Source: Deltaproteobacteria bacterium
Lineage (GTDB): Bacteria; SZUA-79; Acidulodesulfobacterales; Acidulodesulfobacteraceae
Length of the DNA: 64,000 nt
Direction: 5' to 3'
Assembly (NCBI GenBank): GCA_023489335.1
Contig: JAMDCP010000011.1
Location: 1-64,000 of the forward strand
In this document: piece after piece, positions 934 through 34,032 of the stretch
Layout: the number at the start of each line of letters is the position of its first letter
How positions within the stretch are numbered: the first letter of the stretch is position 1
The notes under the pieces: generated by a model
What the model was told of the DNA's origin: nothing
The model's database searches: none
The model's input: the letters and a program-made list of their open reading frames with translations, nothing else
Made by a program: the position numbers and the translations under genes

Positions 934-1695
934 ATGTGGCTGCCTGAAACTGAAAATCTTCTTAAAGAATTCTCAACCTATAAGGAAGTTAACGATTTTG
1001 CCTTTTGCGGCGGTTCCGCGCTTTCTTATTATTTAAAACACAGATATTCCGAAGATGTAGATTTTTTTTCTTTCTCGTCGTCATTCACGCTGGATAAAAA
1101 AAATATAAACAGGCTTATTGATAAATTAAAAAGCAAAGGTTATAAGGTTTCAAATACTTTAGATGAAGAAGAACAGATGGATTTCTATATAAATAAAACA
1201 AAAACGACATTCTGTTCTTACCCTAAATTTAGCAGCTTATTAGAGGAAAACAGCAAACCGTTATTTGGAAACATAAAGATTACAGATATCGGTACTTTAA
1301 TAGCAATGAAAGCCGATGCCTCGAAAAGCAGGGAGAAGATAAGGGATTATTACGATTTATACGCCGTATCTAAGGAATTAGGATTTAAGAAGATAATAGA
1401 CGAATCCCTGAAAGCGGACCCTAATTTCAACGTAAAATTATTTATAAAAAGGCTCGTCGAAATGGACGATAAATTAAGGGATGTTTTCATAGAAGATTAT
1501 TTAAAGCCAAAATACAGTATCAATAAAGTAAGCATAAGGCTCTACTTTGAGAAGGAAGCGGATAATTACATTGCAAAGGAATATATGAAAACTATTAATA
1601 ATAATCTTTCAAAAGAAATTCCGCCTCAGGAAGACGCCTTCACTAAGGACTTAAATAACCGGCTTAATAAGGGCAAAGGCGGCCCGAAGCGGTAA
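934..1695 (+). CDS. AbiEii/AbiGii-type nucleotidyltransferase (toxin-like)
   Basis: Residues 24-45 carry the nucleotidyltransferase signature: GGSAL (26-30) followed by SEDVDFF (39-45) with metal-binding D41 and D43. This is the AbiEii/DUF1814 pattern of type IV toxin-antitoxin and abortive-infection systems, whose members transfer nucleotides to RNA or protein targets. The helical C-terminal half contains KADASKSREKIRDYYDLY, typical of the family. GAGGAG lies 9 bases before the ATG. The last ~20 residues copy the tail of the Fic gene at 2-547. Family confident; target unknown. Confidence 0.85.
   Translation: MWLPETENLLKEFSTYKEVNDFAFCGGSALSYYLKHRYSEDVDFFSFSSSFTLDKKNINRLIDKLKSKGYKVSNTLDEEEQMDFYINKTKTTFCSYPKFSSLLEENSKPLFGNIKITDIGTLIAMKADASKSREKIRDYYDLYAVSKELGFKKIIDESLKADPNFNVKLFIKRLVEMDDKLRDVFIEDYLKPKYSINKVSIRLYFEKEADNYIAKEYMKTINNNLSKEIPPQEDAFTKDLNNRLNKGKGGPKR
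1631..1680 (+). repeat. 50-bp direct repeat, copy 2 (3' end of the nucleotidyltransferase gene)
   Basis: Partner of the copy at 483-532, with two mismatches. After it the tails diverge (PKLG versus GPKR, then stop). Confidence 0.9.
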
Positions 1696-2164
1696 CGGGG
1701 TTTTGGCCGTTGGGGGTTTGGGCATGAAACCAGCGATAGGCAGTCGGATTTTAAGTATAGGGTTTATCTGGAAGAAAGTTGATCAAACTACCTATTCGCT
1801 ATTTCTCGAGCCTTAAAACGCAAATTTGGAAGGATTTATTTAACGAAAAACCCGGAAATCAGGTTTTTTAAGGTTTCTAACCCCATTCCCGATTTTCTTG
1901 GGAGAGTTTGAGAGGGTAGCTTTTGTCGCCAAAAGCGAGCCCTCTCGATATATTTTTATATTCGCATAAAAACCCTGGCCGTCTGACTAAAAATCAGACG
2001 CTCGGACTGTGAATTTTTTTTTAGTGCAACGATTTTGCAACGGTAGGAGGCAAAAAAGCCAAAAATTAAGCGGAATTTACGGAATTGGCGGAATAGCTCA
2101 AAGCGTTTAAATAACTGCAAGAGCAGGCGGAAAGTCGGTTTAGTTAAATTAATATAATTTTTTT
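1696..2164. other. Non-coding, hairpin-rich stretch before the tRNA-Thr fragment
   Basis: No convincing gene. It opens with a copy of the element leader motif (1808-1837), then shows GAGAGGG (1910-1916) pairing with CCCTCTC (1940-1946) around an inner GCTTTT/AAAAGC stem, and a CGTCTGA/TCAGACG hairpin (1980-2000). The order, leader motif then hairpins, resembles the minus-strand region 26865-26460. A structured RNA is possible but unproven. Confidence 0.5.
1808..1837 (+). repeat. Leader motif copy A
   Basis: Contains GAGCCTTAAAACGCAAATTT followed by GGAAGGATTT; related to copies at 26821-26865 (minus), 27849-27883, 29240-29275 and 30942-30976 in the tRNA-Lys element. It is the only copy outside that element and is closest to the minus-strand copy. 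Confidence 0.75.
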
Positions 2165-3787: not shown

Positions 3788-4499
3788 AAAAGAAAAATAT
3801 TCGAAAGAGTTCGGCAAAAAAGAAAAGGTTCTTAATTACACCTGCCAGACTTATCAGCTGTCAAGGCCGGATAAAGTTGGGGCGGTTATGGCGCTAATAA
3901 GGGAATGCCAGCCTAAATCTTTTGAAGATTGGGAACGCTGGTATTTTGAAAATGCTTATACGGAAAGCAGGAGTAAGAGTAAGACGAGAACCAAAATCAC
4001 GAAAGAGGAACTTATAGAGCTTGGCGAAAGGTTGTATGTTAAAATTAAAGAAATTGTTATACCGGAATGGGAAGAAGCATTCAGCCAACTAACCCTTCAG
4101 GATTGCACTGACTATATTTACAATCTGACAATCTGCAGGACATATGACGGCTTTTTGACGGAAAAGTCCGTAGTAAACGACAATTTGGCTAAAAAATTTC
4201 CAGAAGTTAATTTTCTTGAATCCGACCCCCAACTTGACCATGCCGGAGATATAGATTACCTTGGTTGGGTTGGAGATAAAGCTTTTGGCATACAGATAAA
4301 ACCAGTAACGTCCAGGGCAAACTTCGGCAACTATTCGGCTTCGGAAAGAATGAAAGCAAGTTTTAAAGAATTCGAGAGAAAATTCGGCGGTAAGGTTTTT
4401 ATCGTTTTCAGTATCGACGATAAAATTGAGAATAAGGAAGTACTTCTGGAAATAAAGGCGGAAATTATAAGGCTAAAATCGGGTGGAAAAAAGGTATAG
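3774..4499 (+). CDS. Type II restriction endonuclease, MjaI-like
   Basis: About 241 residues. Residues 159-176 (DIDYLGW...FGIQIK) give a PD-(D/E)xK-like core with D159/D161 and Q174-x-K176 in place of E-x-K, a known variant. The LNYTCQTYQLSRPDKVG opening and KPVTSRANFG after the core resemble the MjaI family, whose founder cuts CTAG; specificity here is inference. It overlaps the methyltransferase stop by 14 bases, the tight coupling usual for modification and restriction genes. Confidence 0.65.
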   Translation: MPKNKKEKYSKEFGKKEKVLNYTCQTYQLSRPDKVGAVMALIRECQPKSFEDWERWYFENAYTESRSKSKTRTKITKEELIELGERLYVKIKEIVIPEWEEAFSQLTLQDCTDYIYNLTICRTYDGFLTEKSVVNDNLAKKFPEVNFLESDPQLDHAGDIDYLGWVGDKAFGIQIKPVTSRANFGNYSASERMKASFKEFERKFGGKVFIVFSIDDKIENKEVLLEIKAEIIRLKSGGKKV

Positions 4500-8885: not shown

Positions 8886-9548
8886 ATGCAATCCGAAATA
8901 TTAAATAGAGCCTTTTTTACCAGAAATAATGTTGAAATAATAGCGCGGGAACTTTTAGGCAAGTTTTTGCTTACGAAACAAAATTCAAAAGCAGCCCATA
9001 TTAAAGAAAGCGGTCTGACGGGGGGAATAATTACTGAGGTAGAGGCTTATCTGGGCGTAAAAGATATGGCATCCCATGCTTATAACGGACACCGTTCGAA
9101 CAGGAACGAATCTTTATATAAGGACGGAGGGATAGCTTATATCCATTTATGCTATGGAATTCACAATATGTTTAATATCGTAACTAATAAGGCAGGTGTT
9201 CCGCAGGGGGTTTTAATAAGGAGATTAATACCCGTTTACGGGATAGATATTATGAGGGAAAGAAGGGGCGGCAGCCTTAAACCGGATAACAATTTAACGG
9301 AAGGGCCCGGTAATTTAACCAAAGCGCTGGGAATCGAGATGAGGCATAATGGAGTATTAGTTTGTCAGGATGATGCCATAGAAACCGGAAATAATTTGGA
9401 TTTAGAAATCTTTCTCGAGGATAGAGGCATAAAAATCGATGAGAATATGATAGTTATGAGTCCCCGCATAGGAGTTGGTTATGCGAAAGAATGGGCAAAG
9501 AAGCCTTTAAGGTTTCATTTGGATGAAAGATTAAATTTGTTGAATTGA
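8886..9548 (+). CDS. mpg: 3-methyladenine DNA glycosylase (AAG/MPG family)
   Basis: 220 residues of the alkyladenine glycosylase fold: ARELLGKFLL near residue 20, active-site GIITEVEAY with the catalytic Glu, MASHAYNGHRSNRN, GIAYIHLCYGIHNMFNIV and LTEGPGNLTKALGI. The enzyme excises alkylated purines in base-excision repair. Full length with no sign of damage. It starts 37 bases after the methyltransferase gene. Confidence 0.92.
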   Translation: MQSEILNRAFFTRNNVEIIARELLGKFLLTKQNSKAAHIKESGLTGGIITEVEAYLGVKDMASHAYNGHRSNRNESLYKDGGIAYIHLCYGIHNMFNIVTNKAGVPQGVLIRRLIPVYGIDIMRERRGGSLKPDNNLTEGPGNLTKALGIEMRHNGVLVCQDDAIETGNNLDLEIFLEDRGIKIDENMIVMSPRIGVGYAKEWAKKPLRFHLDERLNLLN

Positions 9549-25687: not shown

Positions 25688-25734
25688 AGTGGTGAGCCGC
25701 GCGGGAGTCGAACCCACGACCACCTGATTAAAAG
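25688..25734 (-). repeat. Left attachment site, tRNA-Lys 3'-half copy
   Basis: 47 bases matching 33955-34001 with one mismatch, spanning from just past the CCA end to the anticodon loop of tRNA-Lys. Beyond 25734 the sequence diverges, so it cannot make a tRNA. It marks the far end of the integrated element. Confidence 0.92.
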
Positions 25735-25957
25735 CTATTTAAAAGGTTTTACGGAAATTCAATAATAACAAGCAACGGCAGACAGACGCTTACTTTTCTG
25801 AATTTTATATTTTATCTTAAATTAACGTCTTTATTACTGTTTTTTAAAAAAAACTTTACCGATTCTTTACCGCATGAAGTGAAATTGACTTTTGCATTAA
25901 TACGTAATAATATATAATAAAAGGTAAAAAAATCATTTTAAGGCAAAGGCTAATTTT
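25735..25957. other. Left end of the integrative element, non-coding
   Basis: No gene. It contains the 28-bp repeat at 25847-25874 that also occurs at the right end inside the integrase gene; the stretch leads into the HicB start at 25958. Confidence 0.5.
25847..25874 (+). repeat. 28-bp terminal repeat, left copy (candidate integrase arm site)
   Basis: Identical to 33884-33911. Its core is a tandem CTTTACCG-ATT-CTTTACCG, the spacing expected of paired arm-type sites of tyrosine integrases. It lies 113 bp inside the left att core. Confidence 0.6.
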
Positions 25958-26161
25958 ATGGAAAAAATTAAAGCTACATTTATAAAAGGTAAAAAATATT
26001 GGGTTGTTTATACCGATGACATTCCTGGTGCGATGTCTCAAGGAAAAACAGTAGAAGAAGCGGAAAAAAATTTAATAGATGCCATTATGGAACTTAGAAA
26101 AGCCGATACGTCTTCCGTCATAAAAGAAAAAGAAATAATCATACAGGAAGTGTTTGCTTGA
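25958..26161 (+). CDS. hicB: HicB-like antitoxin
   Basis: 67 residues of the HicB partial RNase H-like fold: KATFIKGKKYWVVYTDDIPG, then TVEEAEKNLIDAIMELRK. HicB proteins neutralise HicA mRNA interferases. The HicA gene begins inside its stop (4-base overlap). Order antitoxin then toxin is one of the two known arrangements. It may help keep the element in the cell. There is no separate DNA-binding domain visible. Confidence 0.88.
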   Translation: MEKIKATFIKGKKYWVVYTDDIPGAMSQGKTVEEAEKNLIDAIMELRKADTSSVIKEKEIIIQEVFA

Positions 26162-26343
26162 AGCGAAAAGACTTAATCAGGCACTTAGAAAGGCACGAAT
26201 GTATTCTTTTAAGGGAAGGCTCAAACCACAGTGTTTATGTTAATCCGCTTAATGCCAAAAAAGCTCCTATTCCAAGACACAAAGAAGTTGAAGATTTTTT
26301 GGCAATAAAAATCTGCAAGGAATTAGAAATACCATTACCTTAA
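26158..26343 (+). CDS. hicA: HicA-like mRNA interferase toxin
   Basis: 61 residues of the dsRBD-like HicA fold: KRKDLIRHLERHECILLREG, then SNHSVYVNP with the catalytic His, and IPRHKEVEDFLAIKICKEL. HicA cleaves mRNA when free of HicB. Uses a TTG start overlapping the hicB stop by 4 bases, which would keep toxin synthesis low. All key parts are intact. Confidence 0.9.
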   Translation: MKRKDLIRHLERHECILLREGSNHSVYVNPLNAKKAPIPRHKEVEDFLAIKICKELEIPLP

Positions 26344-26459
26344 AGCAAAAAAAACTTTCTAACCCGCCTTAAAACGCCTTACAGGAAGCCGAAAAGCTTA
26401 TAATTTTCCTTGAAAAACCGATAAAGTGATTTTTGCCGGTTCTCCGGAAAAACGAAATG

Positions 26460-26486
26460 ACGCAAACGAAACCGTTTCGTTTGCGT
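26460..26486. repeat. 27-base perfect palindrome
   Basis: ACGCAAACGAAA and TTTCGTTTGCGT flank CCG, a 12-bp perfect stem and the strongest hairpin of the array; a short GTCCG/CGGAC stem follows directly. Confidence 0.8.
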
Positions 26487-26820
26487 GTCCGCCCCGGACG
26501 GATAGTAAAAAGTTATTAACAGGCAAATCCTAAACGGTTAATCAACAGGCTTAAAGCCTGTATGATAAACCTGAATTTGCCCGGTCGATTTACTCACAGG
26601 TTTTTATAACGGCAAAAAGCGTCGTTAAAAAACCTGACGATTTTTCATCCTGACCCAAAAGCCGGCCAGGATAAAAAATCTTGACTAAATCTTTAATAAC
26701 TTTTCGGCGCCGGCGGGCTAAATCTTTTTTTGAACGATTAAAAAATTAAGTGAACTGCGGCGGTTCACCCTCAAAGGCTCTTGAAATCTCAAAACTTGAT
26801 AAAAAAACTGAACCCGGGAC

Positions 26821-26865
26821 ATATTTTAAAAATAAATCCCTTCTAATTTGCGTTTTAAGGCTCGG
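26821..26865 (-). repeat. Leader motif copy B (minus strand)
   Basis: On the minus strand it reads CCGAGCCTTAAAACGCAAAT, then TAGAAGGGATTT and an AT-rich end. Closest relative of copy A at 1808 and oriented into the hairpin array rather than towards a gene. Confidence 0.8.
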
Positions 26866-26901
26866 AAAAAGAAATTAGGGTATAAATGTATAGGATAGAA
26901 T

Positions 26902-26938
26902 AAAGCCGGTTGCCTTAATGGCAAGCACGGCTTTTTTT
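26902..26938 (+). terminator. Strong rho-independent terminator
   Basis: AAAGCCG-GTTGCC, loop TTAAT, GGCAAG-CA-CGGCTTTTTTT. The T-run is on the plus strand, but the position 27 bp beyond the XRE stop suggests it may end that minus-strand gene too. Confidence 0.75.
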
Positions 26939-26964
26939 ATGGCAGATATGATTTATGCTAAAGT

Positions 26965-27498
26965 TTATATTTCATCTTTTTTTAAAAGGGAATGAAAAAA
27001 GTTTAAGCTATTATTAAAGGCTGAAACTAATTTTTTATCGCCGAAGAAATAAATTGCTTCTACCATTTTGATTTTGGCGGCGATTAAATTATTAAAGTCT
27101 TCCATGGTTTTGCCGGTATTAGTAGAAAACGATTTAGTATCATGAAAATTAGATAAAGTATCATAAAAATTAATATCTTTGTCGGTGTAATTATCACCGA
27201 ACATTTTTTTATAATATAAATCAAGCCACGAATCGATCGATACATCTAATAATTTAGCGATTGAAAATAAATTTTCAATCGGTATTGTGATTTTCCCTGT
27301 TTCATATTTAGAGTATGTTTGATAATTAATATTTAAATATTTTGCTATATTTACTGGAGATAAATTTAATTCTTTCCTTCTTTCCCTAATAAGTTTACCT
27401 ATTATCTCATTAAATACATTACCAGTTTTTAAATGAGATTTTGCTTCTTCCTTCGGACTTTGTTTCTGTTTTTTAATGTTATTATTTAATTTTTTCAT
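26965..27498 (-). CDS. XRE-family helix-turn-helix regulator
   Basis: 177 residues. The HTH (about residues 30-85) reads GKLIRERRKELNLSPVNIAK, then NINYQTYSKYETGKITIP and LFSIAKLLDVSIDSWLDLYY, a Cro/CI-like domain. The C-terminal half is helical and unrecognised. Divergent from the excisionase-like gene at 27645, with an AT-rich control region (27499-27644) containing direct repeats of ATGTATTATAAATATATA. It is the likely master repressor of the element. Confidence 0.88.
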   Translation of the reverse strand: MKKLNNNIKKQKQSPKEEAKSHLKTGNVFNEIIGKLIRERRKELNLSPVNIAKYLNINYQTYSKYETGKITIPIENLFSIAKLLDVSIDSWLDLYYKKMFGDNYTDKDINFYDTLSNFHDTKSFSTNTGKTMEDFNNLIAAKIKMVEAIYFFGDKKLVSAFNNSLNFFHSLLKKDEI

Positions 27499-27644
27499 AC
27501 ATTCCCATTGTAAATTAATTATTTTATTATTTTAGCATATATTTTTTTGTTGACATATATGTATTATAAATATATATTAATATGTATTATAAATATATAA
27601 ATCAATAATTAAAATTTAATTTAAGAAAAAGAGGTGATGAGGTT
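27499..27644. promoter_or_regulatory. Divergent control region of the element
   Basis: Between the XRE gene and the excisionase-like gene. Contains TTGACA (27551-27556) and two tandem copies of ATGTATTATAAATATATA, which could be the XRE operator overlapping promoter sequence. Confidence 0.55.
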
Positions 27645-27836
27645 ATGAAAAAAATAGAAAATATGAAACCCGGATATATAGATTTAAAGCAATTATCAGA
27701 TTATACAAGCATAAGCAGACCTCAGGTTTATAATTTAATAAAGCAAAAAAAAATACCGCACATTAAGTTAGGCGCAAAATATGTATTTAAAATATCAGAT
27801 ATTGACGAATATATGGACAAAAACAGGCAGGTATAA
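27645..27836 (+). CDS. Excisionase-like MerR/Xis-type HTH protein
   Basis: 63 residues of the DNA-binding excisionase (helix_turn_helix_17) type: DLKQLSDYTSISRPQVYNLI, then KKIPHIKLGAKYVFKISDID and EYMDKN. Such proteins bend DNA for excision or regulate element genes. GAGGTGATGAGG precedes the ATG. First gene rightward of the control region. The last codons and the leader that follows (ACAGGCAGGTATAAAACC) are duplicated at 29201. Confidence 0.85.
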   Translation: MKKIENMKPGYIDLKQLSDYTSISRPQVYNLIKQKKIPHIKLGAKYVFKISDIDEYMDKNRQV

Positions 27837-27883
27837 AACCTTAATGACCCTTAAAACGCAAATTAGAAGGTTTTTTAAAATAT
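27823..27883 (+). repeat. Leader repeat copy C
   Basis: ACAGGCAGGTATAAAACC, then CCTTAAAACGCAAATTAGAAGG and an AT-rich end, placed before the gene at 27907. Its first bases are the 3' end of the excisionase-like gene. Confidence 0.85.
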
Positions 27884-27906
27884 ATTTTATATTAAAATAT
27901 TAAAAA

Positions 27907-28245
27907 ATGATGAAAATGAATAACGCCGATAATCTAACATTTGAAAATATGCCGGTCGATTTTACCCTGATAGACAACTTACTACAGACAAGGCGGCTTT
28001 CTTTTGAAGAAGTGGGGTTATATTTTCTGTTATGGGCAATTTCCGATAAATCGATAATATTCCATAACATAACAGAATTGGCGAAGCTCGGAAACTGCGG
28101 AACAGACAAGCTTAAGGGGTTAATGGATAAACTTATAGAGAAGAAATTATTAATAAAATACCGTAGAACCCAGCGGATTTATTTTTTTAAAGTTTTGCTT
28201 CCGGACGAAAATTACGAAAACGCTAAAAGGGAATTTTTAAAATAA
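27907..28245 (+). CDS. Small winged-helix protein, replication-associated
   Basis: 112 residues; FEEVGLYFLLWAISDKSIIF, then NITELAKLGNCGTDKLKGLM and KLIEKKLLIKYRR form a winged helix like the N-terminal domain of replication initiators and DnaD-like proteins. The same layout (AEELGLYIIL...LVDLTKIGKKKL...LIAAKLLLRK) starts the next gene, so the two are paralogues. Stop and next start overlap by one base. Function in element replication or control is inference. Confidence 0.6.
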   Translation: MMKMNNADNLTFENMPVDFTLIDNLLQTRRLSFEEVGLYFLLWAISDKSIIFHNITELAKLGNCGTDKLKGLMDKLIEKKLLIKYRRTQRIYFFKVLLPDENYENAKREFLK

Positions 28246-29201
28246 TGGAAACAGCGCAAAATTCACAAATAAAATTCACTAATAAAATCAAAACTCCGTT
28301 TACCTGGGTCGAGAACGATTTAATCCGGTCTAAGTCGTTATCAGCGGAAGAATTAGGCTTATATATTATACTGCGGTCTTTCGGAGAAAATATATATCCT
28401 TCCGTAGATTATTTAGTGGATTTAACAAAAATAGGCAAGAAAAAATTATATTTTGACCTTAACCAGTTAATCGCCGCAAAATTATTGCTAAGGAAGCAGA
28501 CGAAAAAAGGCAAAGTATTTTCAAGCGTAGAATATCGGATTTTATCACTGAACGATAATTACGAAGAAATTTATAAAGAATTTATCGGGGAAGAACCTCT
28601 AAATCCACAAACCCTTGATAATAGCCAATCTCGTTCGTGTGGTCATTTAAGGCACGCTCAAATAAGGCACGCCTTAAATGACCACCATAATAAGAATAAT
28701 GTAAAGGATAAAGAAGAATCATTAAAAGAAAAAGAACCACACACACAAAAAGAAGAAGTCGTGTGTGAAGATGAAATTTCAAAAATCAAAAAAACAAAAA
28801 TCTTTCAAAATTCCGACCCGGGACAAATCAGAAATTTAATAAAAAATAACGGAAAAAAGGCGGTAATTGCGGCGGAGTATATCGAGAAAGCATTTTCCGG
28901 ACAGACGATTAGGAATCCGGTCGGACTTTTAATTCGGACCCTCGAAAGGGGGTCATACTCCGAATTTCCACATGGAAATAATATTAATGGCTTCAAAGCG
29001 GATTTACAAGGGCTTAATGAAAAATACAAAGGCTTTTTGGTGTTTAAGGGCGAAAGAATAAAGGAAATATTAAATATCGGCGGCAGGATAGCGTTTTATA
29101 CCGATAATTGCCTAAGGGAAATAGTTTATACGCCGGCTAAAAGCCATAACGAATTTGAAAGTTATTTGAAAAATAAGCAAGAAGCTAATAATACATCTTA
29201 A
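28245..29201 (+). CDS. Winged-helix protein, probable element replication initiator
   Basis: 318 residues. N-terminal winged helix (~25-105) as in the preceding gene; a low-complexity charged linker (~125-180); then a C-terminal helical region (IRNLIKNNGKKAVIAAEYIE, NPVGLLIRTLERG) resembling replication proteins of plasmids and ICEs. A perfect 15-bp inverted repeat lies inside the linker coding region (28639-28685). It has no obvious catalytic motif. Best guess: initiator or primosome-like loader for the excised circle. Confidence 0.55.
   Translation: METAQNSQIKFTNKIKTPFTWVENDLIRSKSLSAEELGLYIILRSFGENIYPSVDYLVDLTKIGKKKLYFDLNQLIAAKLLLRKQTKKGKVFSSVEYRILSLNDNYEEIYKEFIGEEPLNPQTLDNSQSRSCGHLRHAQIRHALNDHHNKNNVKDKEESLKEKEPHTQKEEVVCEDEISKIKKTKIFQNSDPGQIRNLIKNNGKKAVIAAEYIEKAFSGQTIRNPVGLLIRTLERGSYSEFPHGNNINGFKADLQGLNEKYKGFLVFKGERIKEILNIGGRIAFYTDNCLREIVYTPAKSHNEFESYLKNKQEANNTS
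28639..28685. repeat. 15-bp inverted repeat inside the initiator gene
   Basis: GTGGTCATTTAAGGC (28639-28653) and GCCTTAAATGACCAC (28671-28685) are perfect arms around 17 bases that again contain AAGGCACGC. Placement within a replication gene fits an internal origin, but that is inference. Confidence 0.8.
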
Positions 29202-29276
29202 CAGGCAGGTATAAAACCATTAACAGCTTTTAAACAAGGGCTTAAAACGCAAATTAGAAGGGATTTTAAAATATAT
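29201..29276 (+). repeat. Leader repeat copy D
   Basis: ACAGGCAGGTATAAAACC, then GGCTTAAAACGCAAATTAGA, AGGGATTTTAAAATATATTT, before the EexN-like gene. It repeats the codons and stop of the excisionase-like gene, showing it was copied from copy C. Confidence 0.85.
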
Positions 29277-29310
29277 TTAGCATTAACATATCAAAAAATG
29301 AGGTGAGATT

Positions 29311-29607
29311 ATGAAAAAATTGTTTTTAATCGCAGGGGTAATTTTTACGGGATTAGCATTATCCGGGTGCGCTAAAAGCAATCCGGCTAATAATTATCAT
29401 TCCTATAAATATTATGAAAAGCATAAAAAACAGGCTAAAGCTACTTTAGACGCATGTCAGAAAATACCAGCGTCTGTGAGACAATCAGAAAAATTTAGTC
29501 TTTCAAAGGCTTATGAAAACTGTTTAAATGCCCAAAATGTTGTCTATCATGAAGGCGATATTTTAAATAAAAAACTTTTTAATGCTATGAGACGGGGGGA
29601 GAGATGA
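29311..29607 (+). CDS. EexN-like lipoprotein (putative entry exclusion)
   Basis: 98 residues with a lipoprotein signal: basic start, hydrophobic core and lipobox LSGC with Cys20. The mature part (YHSYKYYEKHKKQAKATLDA, C..., YENCLNAQN) resembles EexN proteins of conjugative elements, which block redundant DNA entry. GAGGTGAG precedes the ATG. It overlaps the following VirB6/TrbL-like gene by 4 bases, a neighbour pairing also seen in conjugation operons. Family call is moderate. Confidence 0.6.
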   Translation: MKKLFLIAGVIFTGLALSGCAKSNPANNYHSYKYYEKHKKQAKATLDACQKIPASVRQSEKFSLSKAYENCLNAQNVVYHEGDILNKKLFNAMRRGER

Positions 29608-30695
29608 AAAAATTAATTTTATTATTAATGATTTTGACTTTTGCAATAACTGCGGGTATAGCGCAAAAGGCTTATGCGGATACGGGACAAACTAATATCA
29701 CAATTAAGCAATATCCGCAAATAGGGGTAAGCGCCACTATACCGGCAACATTCGGGAAAATAATGAATAAAAATATCATCCCGCTTGTTAAAAACGAGAT
29801 ATTGCCATTTTCATTCTTAATGTTTTTATTTGCTATGGCTATAAGGTTATATCTTAACGAAGAAAAAGGGTATATGAAGGAAATTTTTTATATGATATTC
29901 ATCATATCTATTTTGGTTATGTATAATACTATTTTTCTTTGGCTTAACTCCGTCATCGAAGGCATAGCCCACGGAATTATGCCGACAAGCGAATTAAGAT
30001 TATTTCTAAAAAATATTTTTAACTGGAAACATCCGTTCATAGATTTTTTGGCTCTATCAATGGGGGCTTTTGCTTCTACCGCCGCATTAACATTGGCTTC
30101 AATTGCGGTGTGGATTTTAGAATGGCTACGGTATATACTCCTTGCTTTTTTATATCTAATTGGGCCGATAACGATTTCTCTTTCTATGATACCGCCTTTA
30201 AGACCTTTTCTTAAAGCTTGGATAAAGGACACTATCGAAGTTATGAGCTGGATTATAGTTTCGGCGATATTATTTCAAGTTTTTAATACTGTATTATCTA
30301 TAGGCAATACATATCCGTCTTTGCAAAATTTAGACCCTATGGCTGTAGCCGGAATTTACACCTTTTTAGTGATTCTTATAATTTTAACGCCGTATCTTAC
30401 GAGCAAACTTTATCAAGGCGGAATGGGGGCTTTAGGCTCTATCGCAAGCTATGCGACAATATCCATGATAACCGCCGGAGCGTCTGCGGGATTAGGAGCG
30501 GCGGGAGTAAGCGGCGGCGGTCTTGCCGGTAATATTGGTGCTAAACTTGCCGGAAGAGGCGGAGCGGGAGCGGCAAGCTCGACTGCGGCAAGACACGCGG
30601 CGGCTTCAAGCAATACCGGCGCAAGGCATGCCGCAGAAGCGGCAGGGGGCAGAAAATCAAGACCGTATGGAAGAAGGGGGAGCGATGAAGAATAA
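29604..30695 (+). CDS. TrbL/VirB6-like conjugal transfer membrane protein
   Basis: 363 residues with a signal-like first segment and about six transmembrane helices (e.g. FSFLMFLFAMAIRLYL, IFYMIFIISILVMYNTIFLW, VAGIYTFLVILIILTPYLTS), ending in a long Ala/Gly-rich tail with RHAA repeats. This layout matches VirB6/TrbL, an inner-membrane channel part of type IV secretion systems. It is the only T4SS-like subunit in the element, which is odd and may mean it swaps into a helper's machinery. Confidence 0.72.
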   Translation: MKKLILLLMILTFAITAGIAQKAYADTGQTNITIKQYPQIGVSATIPATFGKIMNKNIIPLVKNEILPFSFLMFLFAMAIRLYLNEEKGYMKEIFYMIFIISILVMYNTIFLWLNSVIEGIAHGIMPTSELRLFLKNIFNWKHPFIDFLALSMGAFASTAALTLASIAVWILEWLRYILLAFLYLIGPITISLSMIPPLRPFLKAWIKDTIEVMSWIIVSAILFQVFNTVLSIGNTYPSLQNLDPMAVAGIYTFLVILIILTPYLTSKLYQGGMGALGSIASYATISMITAGASAGLGAAGVSGGGLAGNIGAKLAGRGGAGAASSTAARHAAASSNTGARHAAEAAGGRKSRPYGRRGSDEE

Positions 30696-30891
30696 AATTA
30701 ACTATCTTAAGGAAAACCGGGTTAACATCATATCTATTTTTATAATAGGTTTTATTTTATATTATTATTTTATTAAAAATTATAATGACGCATTAGGCTA
30801 TATTGTTTTGGGAATTGCCATAAATATAGTAGATTTGGCGCATAAGCATTTTAAGGCGAAAGAAAACAAGGGGGCTGATAAGCAAAATTAG
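30685..30891 (+). CDS. 68-residue single-helix membrane protein
   Basis: Starts at ATG 30685 with AAGGGGG upstream, overlapping the TrbL/VirB6-like gene by 11 bases. One or two hydrophobic stretches (IISIFIIGFILYYYFI and ALGYIVLGIAINIV) then a charged end. No family recognised. The overlap and spacing suggest it belongs to the same transfer-related operon. Confidence 0.6.
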   Translation: MKNKINYLKENRVNIISIFIIGFILYYYFIKNYNDALGYIVLGIAINIVDLAHKHFKAKENKGADKQN

Positions 30892-30898
30892 CCCCCTT
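30868..30898 (+). terminator. Hairpin at the end of the transfer operon
   Basis: AAGGGGGCT and AGCCCCCTT form a perfect 9-bp stem that overlaps the last codons of the small membrane gene. The bases that follow are AT-rich but lack a T-run. Confidence 0.5.
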
Positions 30899-30907
30899 AA
30901 ATCTTAA

Positions 30908-30976
30908 TCAGGTAATAAACCTTAACGGCTTTTAGACAAAGGCTTAAAACGCAAATTAGAAAGGATTTTAAAATCT
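30908..30976 (+). repeat. Leader repeat copy E
   Basis: CAGGTAATAAACCTTAACGG, then GGCTTAAAACGCAAATTAGA and AAGGATTTTAAAAT, before the gene at 31010. Resembles copy D over nearly 70 bases, and the bases before the start codon (AACAAATCAAAAGAGGTGA) also resemble those of copy D. Confidence 0.85.
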
Positions 30977-31009
30977 ATTTTTGAATTAACAAATCAAAAG
31001 AGGTGATAA

Positions 31010-31303
31010 ATGAAAACAGAAGTAAAGCATAACGGTTTCGAGGAAGAAAGCTACAGGGTAATAATCAGGGCGGACAATATTGTCCTTAATTTCATAGCGG
31101 AAACAAAAAAAGAGCTGGTAGAAAAAATAATATTTATTTCTAAAGCTTTGGTTTTGCCGGAATTGCCGGTAAAAAAAGATGAGGACGGATACGACATCGA
31201 GGATGAGGAATATAAGCGCAAGATTTTTGTTTCCGTAATAGAAAGAGATTTAACGGCGGTTATCTTTCCTATATGCGATTTAGCGTATTGGTATAAAAAT
31301 TAA
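31010..31303 (+). CDS. Unknown 97-residue element protein
   Basis: Soluble and acidic in the middle (KKDEDGYDIEDEEYKRK), with beta-like N-terminal half (SYRVIIRADNIVLNFIAETK). No family recognised. AGAGGTGAT precedes the ATG and a leader repeat lies just upstream, so it is probably expressed with the rest of the element. A 25-base palindrome follows its stop. Confidence 0.6.
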   Translation: MKTEVKHNGFEEESYRVIIRADNIVLNFIAETKKELVEKIIFISKALVLPELPVKKDEDGYDIEDEEYKRKIFVSVIERDLTAVIFPICDLAYWYKN

Positions 31304-31308
31304 ATAAT

Positions 31309-31333
31309 GAGTGCGGAAACAGTTTCCGCACTC
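31309..31333. repeat. 25-base perfect palindrome after the 31010 gene
   Basis: GAGTGCGGAAAC and GTTTCCGCACTC with a single central A. It lies between two element genes and has no T-run; an attenuator, protein-binding site or transfer-related hairpin are all possible. Confidence 0.8.
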
Positions 31334-31362
31334 GAGTAAAAAATTATGTAGGGAGCGTAATT

Positions 31363-31539
31363 ATGAAAATTAAAAAAGAAGACATCGATAAAGTTCTTAA
31401 AATAAGCGATTTTTTCGAGGAATTTAAGTTTAAATATGACGACGACGGCATATTTGATTTATCAAAAAGTATCGAATCGGAGATTGACAGATTATTAGTT
31501 CTATTTGAGGAAATAAATAAAAAAAAGGAAATTAAATAA
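31363..31539 (+). CDS. Unknown 58-residue acidic protein
   Basis: Starts MKIKKEDIDKVLKISDFF and ends EEINKKKEIK; predicted all-helical and charged. AGGGAGCG precedes the ATG by 6-7 bases. Its stop overlaps the next start (TAATG), so it is translationally coupled to the replication-relaxation-like gene. No family recognised. Confidence 0.6.
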   Translation: MKIKKEDIDKVLKISDFFEEFKFKYDDDGIFDLSKSIESEIDRLLVLFEEINKKKEIK

Positions 31540-32249
31540 TGGGCGCATATAAAAGGGTTGATTTTAGCGATAGGGATAAACAGATATTGGTTTATTTATA
31601 TAAACATAGATATGCTGATTTTACGGCTTTAAATATAATAAATCCGGTAAGTATAACCTTATACAAAAGGTTAGAAAAATTTATTAAATTCGGGTATGTA
31701 AAAAAAATCGATTCGATAAATATAAAAATACCGGTTTATGCTATTACGGGGCGGGGTAAGCACTGGTTAGCCCAGAATATGCCGGTGGAATTTAAAAAAC
31801 CCGTTTTAAGTAAAATTAAAACATCGTCAATCTATAACTTCAATCATCACCTTCTTATCGCAAAAACGGGCGCATTATTAACGAGCCGAAACATCGATTA
31901 TGAAATAGATTTAACTTGCAAGGCGCAATATCCCGAACTTAAAATTATCCCTGATGTTGTCATTAAAAAAGATGACGGTTTAATCGGTTTTGAAATCGAA
32001 CTTGAATATAAAAATGTTTCAAAGTATGCAAAGAAATTGTCGCAGTTGCAGACGAGCAGAGATATAAAAAAGTTAATATATTTGACAAGCGGAAACCCGG
32101 AAACTCTAAAGAAAAAAATCATGCAAATTGACAGATATGAAGCAGGGGGAACATTAGAAGAAAGACTTATAAGAAATCAGACGAAAGAAAAAATAGAATA
32201 TATTAAATTTAATGAATTTATACAGGACATTGACAAGTATTTATCCTGA
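31539..32249 (+). CDS. Replication-relaxation-like protein
   Basis: 236 residues. An N-terminal winged helix (DRDKQILVYLYKHRYADFTA, YKRLEKFIKFGYVKKI) is followed by a domain with NFNHHLLIAKTGALL and IPDVVIKKDDGLIGFEIELE, matching the Replic_Relax/MobC-like family found in integrative and mobilisable elements, where such proteins help open DNA at an origin. The D...ExE stretch also recalls PD-(D/E)xK folds. Probably acts on the element's origin. Confidence 0.65.
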   Translation: MGAYKRVDFSDRDKQILVYLYKHRYADFTALNIINPVSITLYKRLEKFIKFGYVKKIDSINIKIPVYAITGRGKHWLAQNMPVEFKKPVLSKIKTSSIYNFNHHLLIAKTGALLTSRNIDYEIDLTCKAQYPELKIIPDVVIKKDDGLIGFEIELEYKNVSKYAKKLSQLQTSRDIKKLIYLTSGNPETLKKKIMQIDRYEAGGTLEERLIRNQTKEKIEYIKFNEFIQDIDKYLS

Positions 32250-32650
32250 AAAAGAAAATAAAAAACACATACAAAAGGCAATCAAAATGCAGGCGGAAAT
32301 ATTGCAAAAAGAACGACAAAAGAAAATAAATTATCCGGCGGATAACAAAAAGATGATAAAAAATACCTTTATAATTTCTATGAAATTTAATTATAAGGGT
32401 ATTTATGGAAATTTAACGGCGGATAAAAACCCAAGAACCCCCGCCTTTCCCCACTCTCACTTAGTAGGGTGGTCGGGAGGTTTGAAAAGCCAAACTTCCC
32501 GACCACCCTACTAAAAGCGTGTGAGAGTGGGGAAAGGCGAAAGACAAAAGCAAAGGCAAAGACAGAGGCAAAAACCAAAGACAAAAGCAAAGACGAAATA
32601 CGAAAGGCAAATTGAAAAAAACTTATTAAAAACTTCTTAAAAAAAATATT
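32250..32650. other. Non-coding region with giant hairpin and purine-rich repeats
   Basis: After the replication-relaxation gene no convincing gene appears. It carries a 96-bp near-perfect hairpin (32443-32538), then about 65 bases of purine-rich short repeats (AAAGAC, AAAGGC, AAAGCA units). The placement beside the relaxation-type gene fits an origin of transfer or replication. Confidence 0.5.
32443..32538. repeat. 96-bp near-perfect long hairpin
   Basis: Left arm starts GCCTTTCCCCACTCTCAC and right arm ends GTGAGAGTGGGGAAAGGC; inside, TAGTAGGGTGGTCGGGA pairs with TCCCGACCACCCTACTA, with a small loop around AAAAG and a short asymmetric bulge. About 40 bp of stem in all. Confidence 0.92.
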
Positions 32651-32842
32651 ATGCTGATAAAAATTAAAGATGTTGCCGGAATGTTATCGATGAACGAAAA
32701 CAGCATTTACAAACTTGTCTATCGTAAAGCCATTCCTTATACAAAAATAGGCGGGGCTTTAAGGTTCGATAAGGATAAAATTATTACTTGGATTAATCAA
32801 AACAGCTATGATATTATTAATCCGAAAAGTAAGCGTTTGTAA
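32651..32842 (+). CDS. Excisionase-like HTH protein next to the integrase
   Basis: 63 residues with the excisionase-type HTH: KIKDVAGMLSMNENSIYKLV, then KAIPYTKIGGALRFDKDKII and TWINQ. Lies 23 bp before the integrase gene, the usual place of Xis. The element has a second such protein at 27645; this one is the better candidate for directing excision. Confidence 0.85.
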   Translation: MLIKIKDVAGMLSMNENSIYKLVYRKAIPYTKIGGALRFDKDKIITWINQNSYDIINPKSKRL

Positions 32843-32865
32843 ATGTCGTTTAAGGGGGTGAACGA

Positions 32866-33951
32866 ATGGGCATTTACAAAAAAGCTAACAGCAATAATTT
32901 TATGATGAGTAAAACCGTAAACGGTTTAACTTATTTTAAATCTTCCGGCACAAATTTAAAAATGGAAGCCAGGGCAACTTTCGACCGCTGGGTCATCGAG
33001 CTTAAAGAACAAATCCGGACCGGCAAGCCGGTTAGACAGGAACGAGAACCTATAAATAATTATACTTTCTCGGAGCTTGCAGATAAGTATTTGGAATTTA
33101 CGGACGGACGGCTTAAATCCTTTTACGATACCTCATTATTCGTTAAAACATTGCTTAAGCGATTTAAGGATACTCGGTTAACCGATTTTTCAATGCAGGA
33201 TTTAGAGGTTTTACAATCAGACTGGATTAATCAGAACTTTAGTATAGCTTATGCTAACAGGCTGACGGCTATATTAAAAAGAATGTTTACTAAAGCTTAC
33301 GATTGGGAAATGATAAACGAGGACATCTTGAAGCGGGTCCGGAAAGCAAAACAGCTTAAAGGGGAAAATAAGCGGTTAAGGTATTTATCCGAAGATGAGG
33401 CGCAGAGGCTTATTAATAACTGCGACAATCATTTAAAGCCTATCGTTATAACGGCGTTAAATACCGGCATGAGAAAATCAGAAATTCTGGGACTTACCTG
33501 GGACAGGGTCGATTTAAAAAACAGGGTGATTCTCCTGGACAAAACCAAGAACGGCGAACGCCGGGAAATACCTATAAATAATATTCTTTATAATGCCTTT
33601 TCCGGAGTAGTTAGAAATCTTAAAACTGAATACGTTTTTTATAATCCGGAAACTTTAAAGCCGTATTATGATGTTAAAAGGAGTTTTACGGCCGCTTTAA
33701 GAAAATCGCATATTCTTGATTTTCGTTTTCACGATTTAAGGCATACGTTCGCAAGCTGGTTGATAATGGGCGGAATAGATTTAACGACCGTTAAGGAGCT
33801 GTTAGGACATAAAGACGTCAAGATGACTTTAAGGTATTCTCATTTGGCGGCAAGTCATATATCTAATGCCGTCAAGGTTTTAGAAAAAAACTTTACCGAT
33901 TCTTTACCGCAGGAACAAAAGCAAAAAAACGAATGTCTTGAAAGTGTTTAA
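32866..33951 (+). CDS. int: Tyrosine recombinase / integrase
   Basis: 361 residues. N-terminal SAM-like core-binding domain (~70-150), then a complete catalytic domain with R203 (NTGMRKSEIL), H289 and R292 (HDLRHTFASW), H315 (LLGHKDVK) and nucleophile Y324 (LRYSH). It would integrate the element at tRNA-Lys; the gene stops 5 bp before the tRNA CCA end. The 3' end of the gene contains the right copy of the 28-bp candidate arm site. Start ATG follows AAGGGGGTG. Confidence 0.95.
   Translation: MGIYKKANSNNFMMSKTVNGLTYFKSSGTNLKMEARATFDRWVIELKEQIRTGKPVRQEREPINNYTFSELADKYLEFTDGRLKSFYDTSLFVKTLLKRFKDTRLTDFSMQDLEVLQSDWINQNFSIAYANRLTAILKRMFTKAYDWEMINEDILKRVRKAKQLKGENKRLRYLSEDEAQRLINNCDNHLKPIVITALNTGMRKSEILGLTWDRVDLKNRVILLDKTKNGERREIPINNILYNAFSGVVRNLKTEYVFYNPETLKPYYDVKRSFTAALRKSHILDFRFHDLRHTFASWLIMGGIDLTTVKELLGHKDVKMTLRYSHLAASHISNAVKVLEKNFTDSLPQEQKQKNECLESV
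33884..33911 (+). repeat. 28-bp terminal repeat, right copy (inside the integrase gene)
   Basis: Identical to 25847-25874, same orientation, with tandem CTTTACCG units. It lies 44 bp from the right att core. Confidence 0.6.
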
Positions 33952-33954
33952 AAT

Positions 33955-34001
33955 AGTGGTGAGCCGCGCGGGGGTCGAACCCACGACCACCTGATTAAAA
34001 G
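33955..34001 (-). repeat. Right attachment site, within tRNA-Lys
   Basis: 47 bases shared with 25688-25734 apart from one mismatch. It comprises the tRNA 3' half up to the anticodon loop, the usual crossover region for tyrosine integrases, and integration has kept the tRNA intact. Confidence 0.92.
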
Positions 34002-34032
34002 TCAGGTGCTCTACCTGCTGAGCTAGCGGCTC
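33957..34032 (-). tRNA. tRNA-Lys(UUU)
   Basis: 76 bases including encoded CCA. Acceptor GAGCCGC pairs with GCGGCTC; D-arm GCTC/GAGC; anticodon stem CCTGA/TCAGG with loop CTTTTAA (anticodon TTT); T-arm GTGGG TTCGACC CCCGC. Discriminator A. The cloverleaf is complete, and it is the insertion target of the adjacent element. Confidence 0.97.

Follow-up and report, generated by a model that had tools for sequence, protein, structure and literature searches.

A strand-selected folded element exchanged among the integrating and conjugative elements of a bacterial phylum

The sso1 region of ICEBs1 provides a precedent for an orientation-specific set of stem-loops carried by an ICE, a type of element in which little is known of how transferred single-stranded DNA (ssDNA) is converted to duplex (PMC4595007). 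STAXI sequences, found near Ssb, antirestriction and integrase genes, are candidates for either RNA or ssDNA (PMC2864571). The folded element described here raises the same question and likewise consists of repeated structured units near mobile-element genes for DNA handling, but where STAXI are tandem pseudoknots, often with UUCG loops, it is made of multibranched hairpins with T-rich loops, lacks UUCG and has no match in Rfam. It resembles sso (ICEBs1 sso1 and pBAA1 sso) in being non-coding, in carrying several stem-loops on one strand in a specific orientation and in its occurrence on ICEs and small replicons. It differs in being larger, multibranched and strongly covarying, in having no sequence match among 72,556 plasmids and 50,697 phages (blastn distant mode), and in that priming is for this element only a candidate role. 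ERIC, REP/REPIN and NEMIS sequences are comparable as discrete, dispersed, palindromic intergenic units; the folded element, in contrast, is low in copy number, apparently enriched near mobile-element genes and selected on one strand, and its pairing is intact in diverged copies. Fold-based recognition on one strand and frequent proximity to tyrosine recombinases are reminiscent of attC, but there is no cassette array. An identity as attC was rejected because no IntI (TIGR02249) scored above cut-off in the 30 genomes of the phylum sample; inspection by eye recognised neither an R nor an L box (RYYYAAC ... GTTRRRY).

The window, by which we mean the whole 64,000-nucleotide stretch analysed, is the start of a contig from a 1.8-Mb genome; the phylum sample, defined by GTDB placement, belongs to one family throughout. 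The folded element is carried by an integrated element (25688–34032, no strand assigned) that is bounded by a 47-bp repeat of the tRNA-Lys 3′ end (25688–25734) and by tRNA-Lys itself (33957–34032). Its genes encode an AlpA-type regulator, a λ-O/DnaD-like replication initiator (phrog_270 match, E 2e-11), EexN (above the NCBIfam cut-off), a TrbL-like protein named from position with no family match, a MobC-like protein (weak match) and a tyrosine integrase. Searches of IMG/VR returned relatives of neither the integrase nor the HTH_36 protein. On the outer side of the hairpin array lie HicB-like and HicA cargo genes (25958–26343, plus strand; HicA above the Pfam cut-off, HicB weak), and on its tail side a gene for a Cro/CI-type (HTH_3) repressor (26965–27498, minus strand). 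A terminator-like hairpin followed by seven T residues on the plus strand (26899–26937) was found by eye and by inverted-repeat search and is kept in a related island of genome G011 (L068); it is absent from the list produced by the terminator scan. In that island (L068, near 4200), the array ends at a point matching window positions 26666–26674, and another gene cassette, RelBE-like by eye, takes the place of HicBA and the remainder of the array.

The initial annotation had described five stems, at 26460, 26545, 26597, 26641 and 26750, as one array. All five exist, but they do not form a single array. The stem at 26460 is a perfect 13-bp inverted repeat (26460–26486, no strand) located by inverted-repeat search outside the folded family, and no second copy of it was found. 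The short stem at 26750 (26750–26768) falls inside a 60-bp plus-strand relic of a parB-type gene (26750–26810; VNCGGSPSKALEISKLDKKT), which matches the ParB proteins of L020, L023 and L024 and is also present in L068. The unit that recurs at other loci comprises the three middle stems together with a tail and an outer stem that had been missed, and spans 26507–26731. Its minus strand is predicted to fold at −90.9 kcal/mol, compared with −50 ± 4.8 for dinucleotide shuffles (z −8.6; 0/200 as stable); the plus strand reaches only −73.8 (z −6.6), and the minus strand folded as DNA is also far beyond chance (z −8.9).

Read on the minus strand, the unit begins with a conserved, unpaired 5′ tail (26706–26731; AAAAAAAGATTTAGCCCGCCGGCGCC) that is common to most full members. 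The outer stem P1 follows, its 5′ strand (26693–26705) pairing with its 3′ strand (26507–26519) in both the minimum-free-energy and the centroid structures; P1 covaries among relatives. Within it, one branch holds two hairpins, at 26639–26680 (the 26641 stem), with a ...CCGGCUUUUGG... loop of a type common to relatives, and at 26597–26636 (the 26597 stem), with loop CGCUUUUUG, which was found by both inverted-repeat search and folding. A second branch, P-b (26520–26583), is closed by pairing of 26573–26583 with 26520–26530 in the predicted fold, and contains the inner hairpin at 26536–26571 (GGUUUAUCAUACAGGC/GCCUGUUGAUUAACC; the 26545 stem). The 3′ half of P-b can be aligned to type III members (see below). 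Against the type III alignment the window copy keeps the architecture and forms 42 of the 57 consensus pairs, while its extra hairpin module aligns poorly.

Relatives were found by searching with the tail GGCGGRCTAAATCTTTTT; at the loci recovered, the architecture, linkers and loops are conserved and the stem sequences differ. Six relatives, aligned on the structured strand with the window copy left out (alignment A3), were used to build a covariance model, R1, which recovers the window copy with a score of 54.2 bits (E 1.3e-11 across the locus set, 8.6e-11 genome-wide). In the phylum sample R1 finds about 34 copies in 19 of the 30 genomes, at 0–5 per genome; five of the 34 places counted are truncated or degraded. 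With stricter filters it gave no match in 356 genomes outside the phylum. At the gathering cut-offs Rfam, STAXI included, annotates only tRNA in the window, relaxed E-values adding nothing meaningful, and the exact tail and the exact motif B (see below) are both absent from IMG/VR. The hairpins are part of a family not described before, made up of folded, non-coding sequences that are strongly conserved and that match no known family. Four subtypes can be distinguished (Ia, Ib, II and III). Type Ib units, and likewise the ICE slot (L168 9527–9600), have a conserved C/G-run hairpin, GCTTTTGCCTTTCTCCCCCTTTGCTAAGGGGGCTGGGGGGTTAGG, immediately 5′ of the tail. At one locus (L208), inspection by eye suggested a Cas12a-like gene, together with a repeat of Cas12a type (ATCTACAATAGTAGAAATTA), 0.7 kb behind copy m12 (G027:C55).

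Conservation of pairing, which had been named as a check on the hairpins, is borne out by the six aligned relatives. RNAalifold predicts 63 pairs, of which 28 show compensatory, both-sided change. Overall 95.9% of cells are paired; the figure is 83.2% in shuffled alignments (none of 500 as high) and does not exceed 46% once the partners are slid. In nearly all members the more stable fold is that of the strand equivalent to the minus strand of the window. Among members aligned with R1, G-U pairs number 117 and A-C mismatches 21, an alignment that leans to the model; model-free alignments of the four subtypes gave G-U to A-C ratios of 37:0, 33:8, 26:2 and 14:1, or 110 to 11 in sum on the minus strand. 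This excess indicates that one single strand is selected, and speaks against a plus-strand RNA and against a cruciform in duplex DNA, since neither would give such a bias. The structure is thus on the leftward (minus) strand, as the initial annotation had guessed. A terminator or attenuator acting in the plus-strand mRNA of the surrounding operons could account for the TTTTTT at which the plus strand ends, often shortly upstream of the next start codon. We consider this very unlikely, however: read on the plus strand, the conserved wobbles turn into A-C mismatches and the fold is poorer in nearly every member, and a terminator-like stem at the T run is absent from the scanned regions. The fold, being selected on one strand, therefore works either as ssDNA, during transfer or replication, or as RNA.

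The family is distributed as discrete modules. Blocks of homology have sharp borders and unrelated flanks, extending relative to the tail from about −57 to +250 in type Ib, −80 to +179 in type III, −18 to +206 in type Ia and −3 to about +165 in type II. A single slot in an ICE holds type Ib in one genome (G010) and type II in another (G004), and is empty in relatives, including one in the genome of the window (L083; L099). In an IME, the slot behind the repressor gene has a type Ia copy in G002, and that of G003 has a type Ib copy. The slots with differing subtypes are those of m07/m22 (trb-type ICE) and m06/m09 (IME); conversely, a single subtype is also found in different slots. The sso, too, are exchanged as modules. 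A small repeat pair, TATATAGTA-N35-CTATATATAGTA, occurs in slots lacking the array (L083 near 2020–2080, L099 near 3940–4070) or directly behind it (3′ flanks of m08, m09 and m14).

At least 22 of the 34 copies have an integrase, type IV secretion system (T4SS), replication or partition gene within 9 kb, on contigs that are in many cases short. No mobile-element gene was recognised near the other 12, several of which are on short contigs. Carriers include T4SS, EexN and MobC-like genes; no relaxase was identified beside the arrays. One ICE (G010:C126) holds two copies. An ICE gene beside the array was considered as a replication gene and rejected, because it precedes the TrbL-like gene and is TrbJ-like by position, without a Pfam match. 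Within one phylum, the folded unit moves from one integrating or conjugative element to another.

Such a distribution might also be produced by a non-autonomous mobile repeat, of the ERIC, REP or MITE kind, whose fold serves its own movement only. The dispersal of discrete units among unrelated flanks is in keeping with this, as is a unit of ~355 bp that parts two genes abutting in a relative (the m11/L205 pair). We nevertheless regard a mobile repeat as improbable. Copies diverged by 10–20% still pair almost fully by way of compensatory changes; in type Ib, by pairwise counts of differing pairs, pairing was kept by both-sided changes 86 times and broken 12 times, so that these are not just repeats in decay. 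Copy number is also low, subtypes substitute for each other in one slot, and no target duplication is seen in m11/L205, the one clear filled and empty pair. The unit has an outer stem, and the genes neighbouring the copies share no transposase.

The initial annotation had also placed a leader motif at the head of the array. This motif, here called motif B (CCTTAAAACGCAAATTNGAARG; 22 bp), is real and phylum-specific: the window contains five copies at ≤3 mismatches (at 1811, 26839, 27849, 29240 and 30942) where 0.01 would be expected, and about 60 occur in 21 of the 30 phylum genomes with no control matches. The copy nearest the array is on the minus strand at 26839–26860 (CCTTAAAACGCAAATTAGAAGG), separated from it by the parB relic. 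It does not head the array, because its placement and direction differ elsewhere; in L164 it lies behind the array in convergent orientation and in L172 the two diverge, which also rules it out as the array promoter. GGATTTTTTA comes after motif B. Some copies lie 40–70 nt upstream of operon starts (27849, 29240 and 30942), and at other loci the same spacing precedes parB-like or eexN genes. Many others stand directly behind the 3′ end of a gene for a tyrosine recombinase of ~350 aa, and the motif there runs straight into an antisense gene's stop codon. Motif B marks module borders. Upstream of it lies a sub-motif, GGTTAATGGTTTTATACC, whose orientation is inverted in the three copies at operon starts in the window island.

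Motif B is also part of a second conserved block at island ends (window 1690–2020, L087 3974–4205 and L100 10805–11146), in which it is followed by hairpins (for example GAGAGGGTAGCTTTTGTCGCCAAAAGCGAGCCCTCTC) shortly before a tRNA-derived att repeat. Window positions 1811–2030 are 88.9–89.7% identical in DNA to L100 and L087, with a fold z of −4.3. The region at 1838–2000 had been taken to be of the same kind as the array; since R1 gives no match to 1811–2030 even at E 1, the two are not the same structure.

What the fold does can be weighed between DNA and RNA, and the weights that we attach to these roles and to those discussed above are matters of judgement rather than computation. The initial annotation offered two identities, an origin or a structured RNA of an undescribed kind carried by the element, and this pair comes near to what the results support. 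The sequence is indeed conserved, covarying, borne by mobile elements and unmatched by any described family. With somewhat less than even confidence, we suggest that the folded element most likely acts as ssDNA, in priming or transfer. This role is favoured because no clear promoter is apparent in the scanned regions, the loops are T-rich (53% T/U over 83 hairpin loops), none of those 83 loops is a GNRA or a UNCG loop, and the units are exchanged as modules. A passage through a single-stranded stage, to be expected of the carrier elements, would also favour it. A sigma-70-like site matching at 9 of 12 positions above the tail on the structured strand was absent from the scanned window and L214 regions; L168 has one such promoter-like match (9462–9489), within the number expected for so AT-rich a region. 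Several considerations weigh against an ssDNA role: conserved, covarying intergenic structures in bacteria are usually RNA; the λ-O/DnaD-like initiator of the window element points to theta replication and not to a rolling circle; and to these are added the lack of an identified relaxase beside the arrays, the 12 copies with no recognised mobile-element gene nearby, the two copies in one ICE and the single match in L168.

The main rival, a structured non-coding RNA of ~200–310 nt transcribed leftward from the minus strand, is possible but, in our view, rather doubtful. Its U-rich repeated hairpins would bind a protein, and it would regulate maintenance, transfer or superinfection, a mode that we hold with the same reserve. 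The strong covariation and the wobbles conserved on one strand would suit such an RNA, as would the linkers UUAG and CGUUAA conserved beside helices, the U run at the end of the last stem in types II and III, and, in three IMEs, an array strand that lies behind the repressor gene and is codirectional with it. Against it stand the lack of a clear promoter-like site positioned for transcription in the scanned regions, the differing upstream sequences of the subtypes, the absence of stable RNA tetraloops and an orientation that is commonly antisense to the flanking genes. A bolder form of this reading, which we think unlikely, is that the fold represents a class of large structured non-coding RNA new to science, passed on whole among conjugative and integrative elements across the phylum, the subtypes swapping in a slot like an incompatibility or immunity determinant.

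The sequence at 26507–26731 is a discrete, exchangeable part of conjugative, mobilizable and plasmid-like elements, selected to fold as a single strand. If it acts as ssDNA, unwinding of the carrier during transfer or replication would expose this strand, which would fold into the multibranched structure, and its repeated hairpins, with stems closing in a G·T wobble and T-rich loops, might be recognised by a protein of the host or of the element. Recognition could then lead to priming of the complementary strand or mark the strand for processing, in the manner of sso/ssi or of a transfer site. The acting strand would be DNA rather than RNA, and the conserved tail could hold a putative nic site.

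Little is known of the structured nucleic acids carried by ICEs and mobilizable islands. The role of this one is testable, because it belongs to a phylum-wide family of about 34 members in four subtypes, with a covariance model, slot swaps and empty sites. The family also carries a warning: a structure in a mobile element that shows compensatory change and strand bias need not be RNA.
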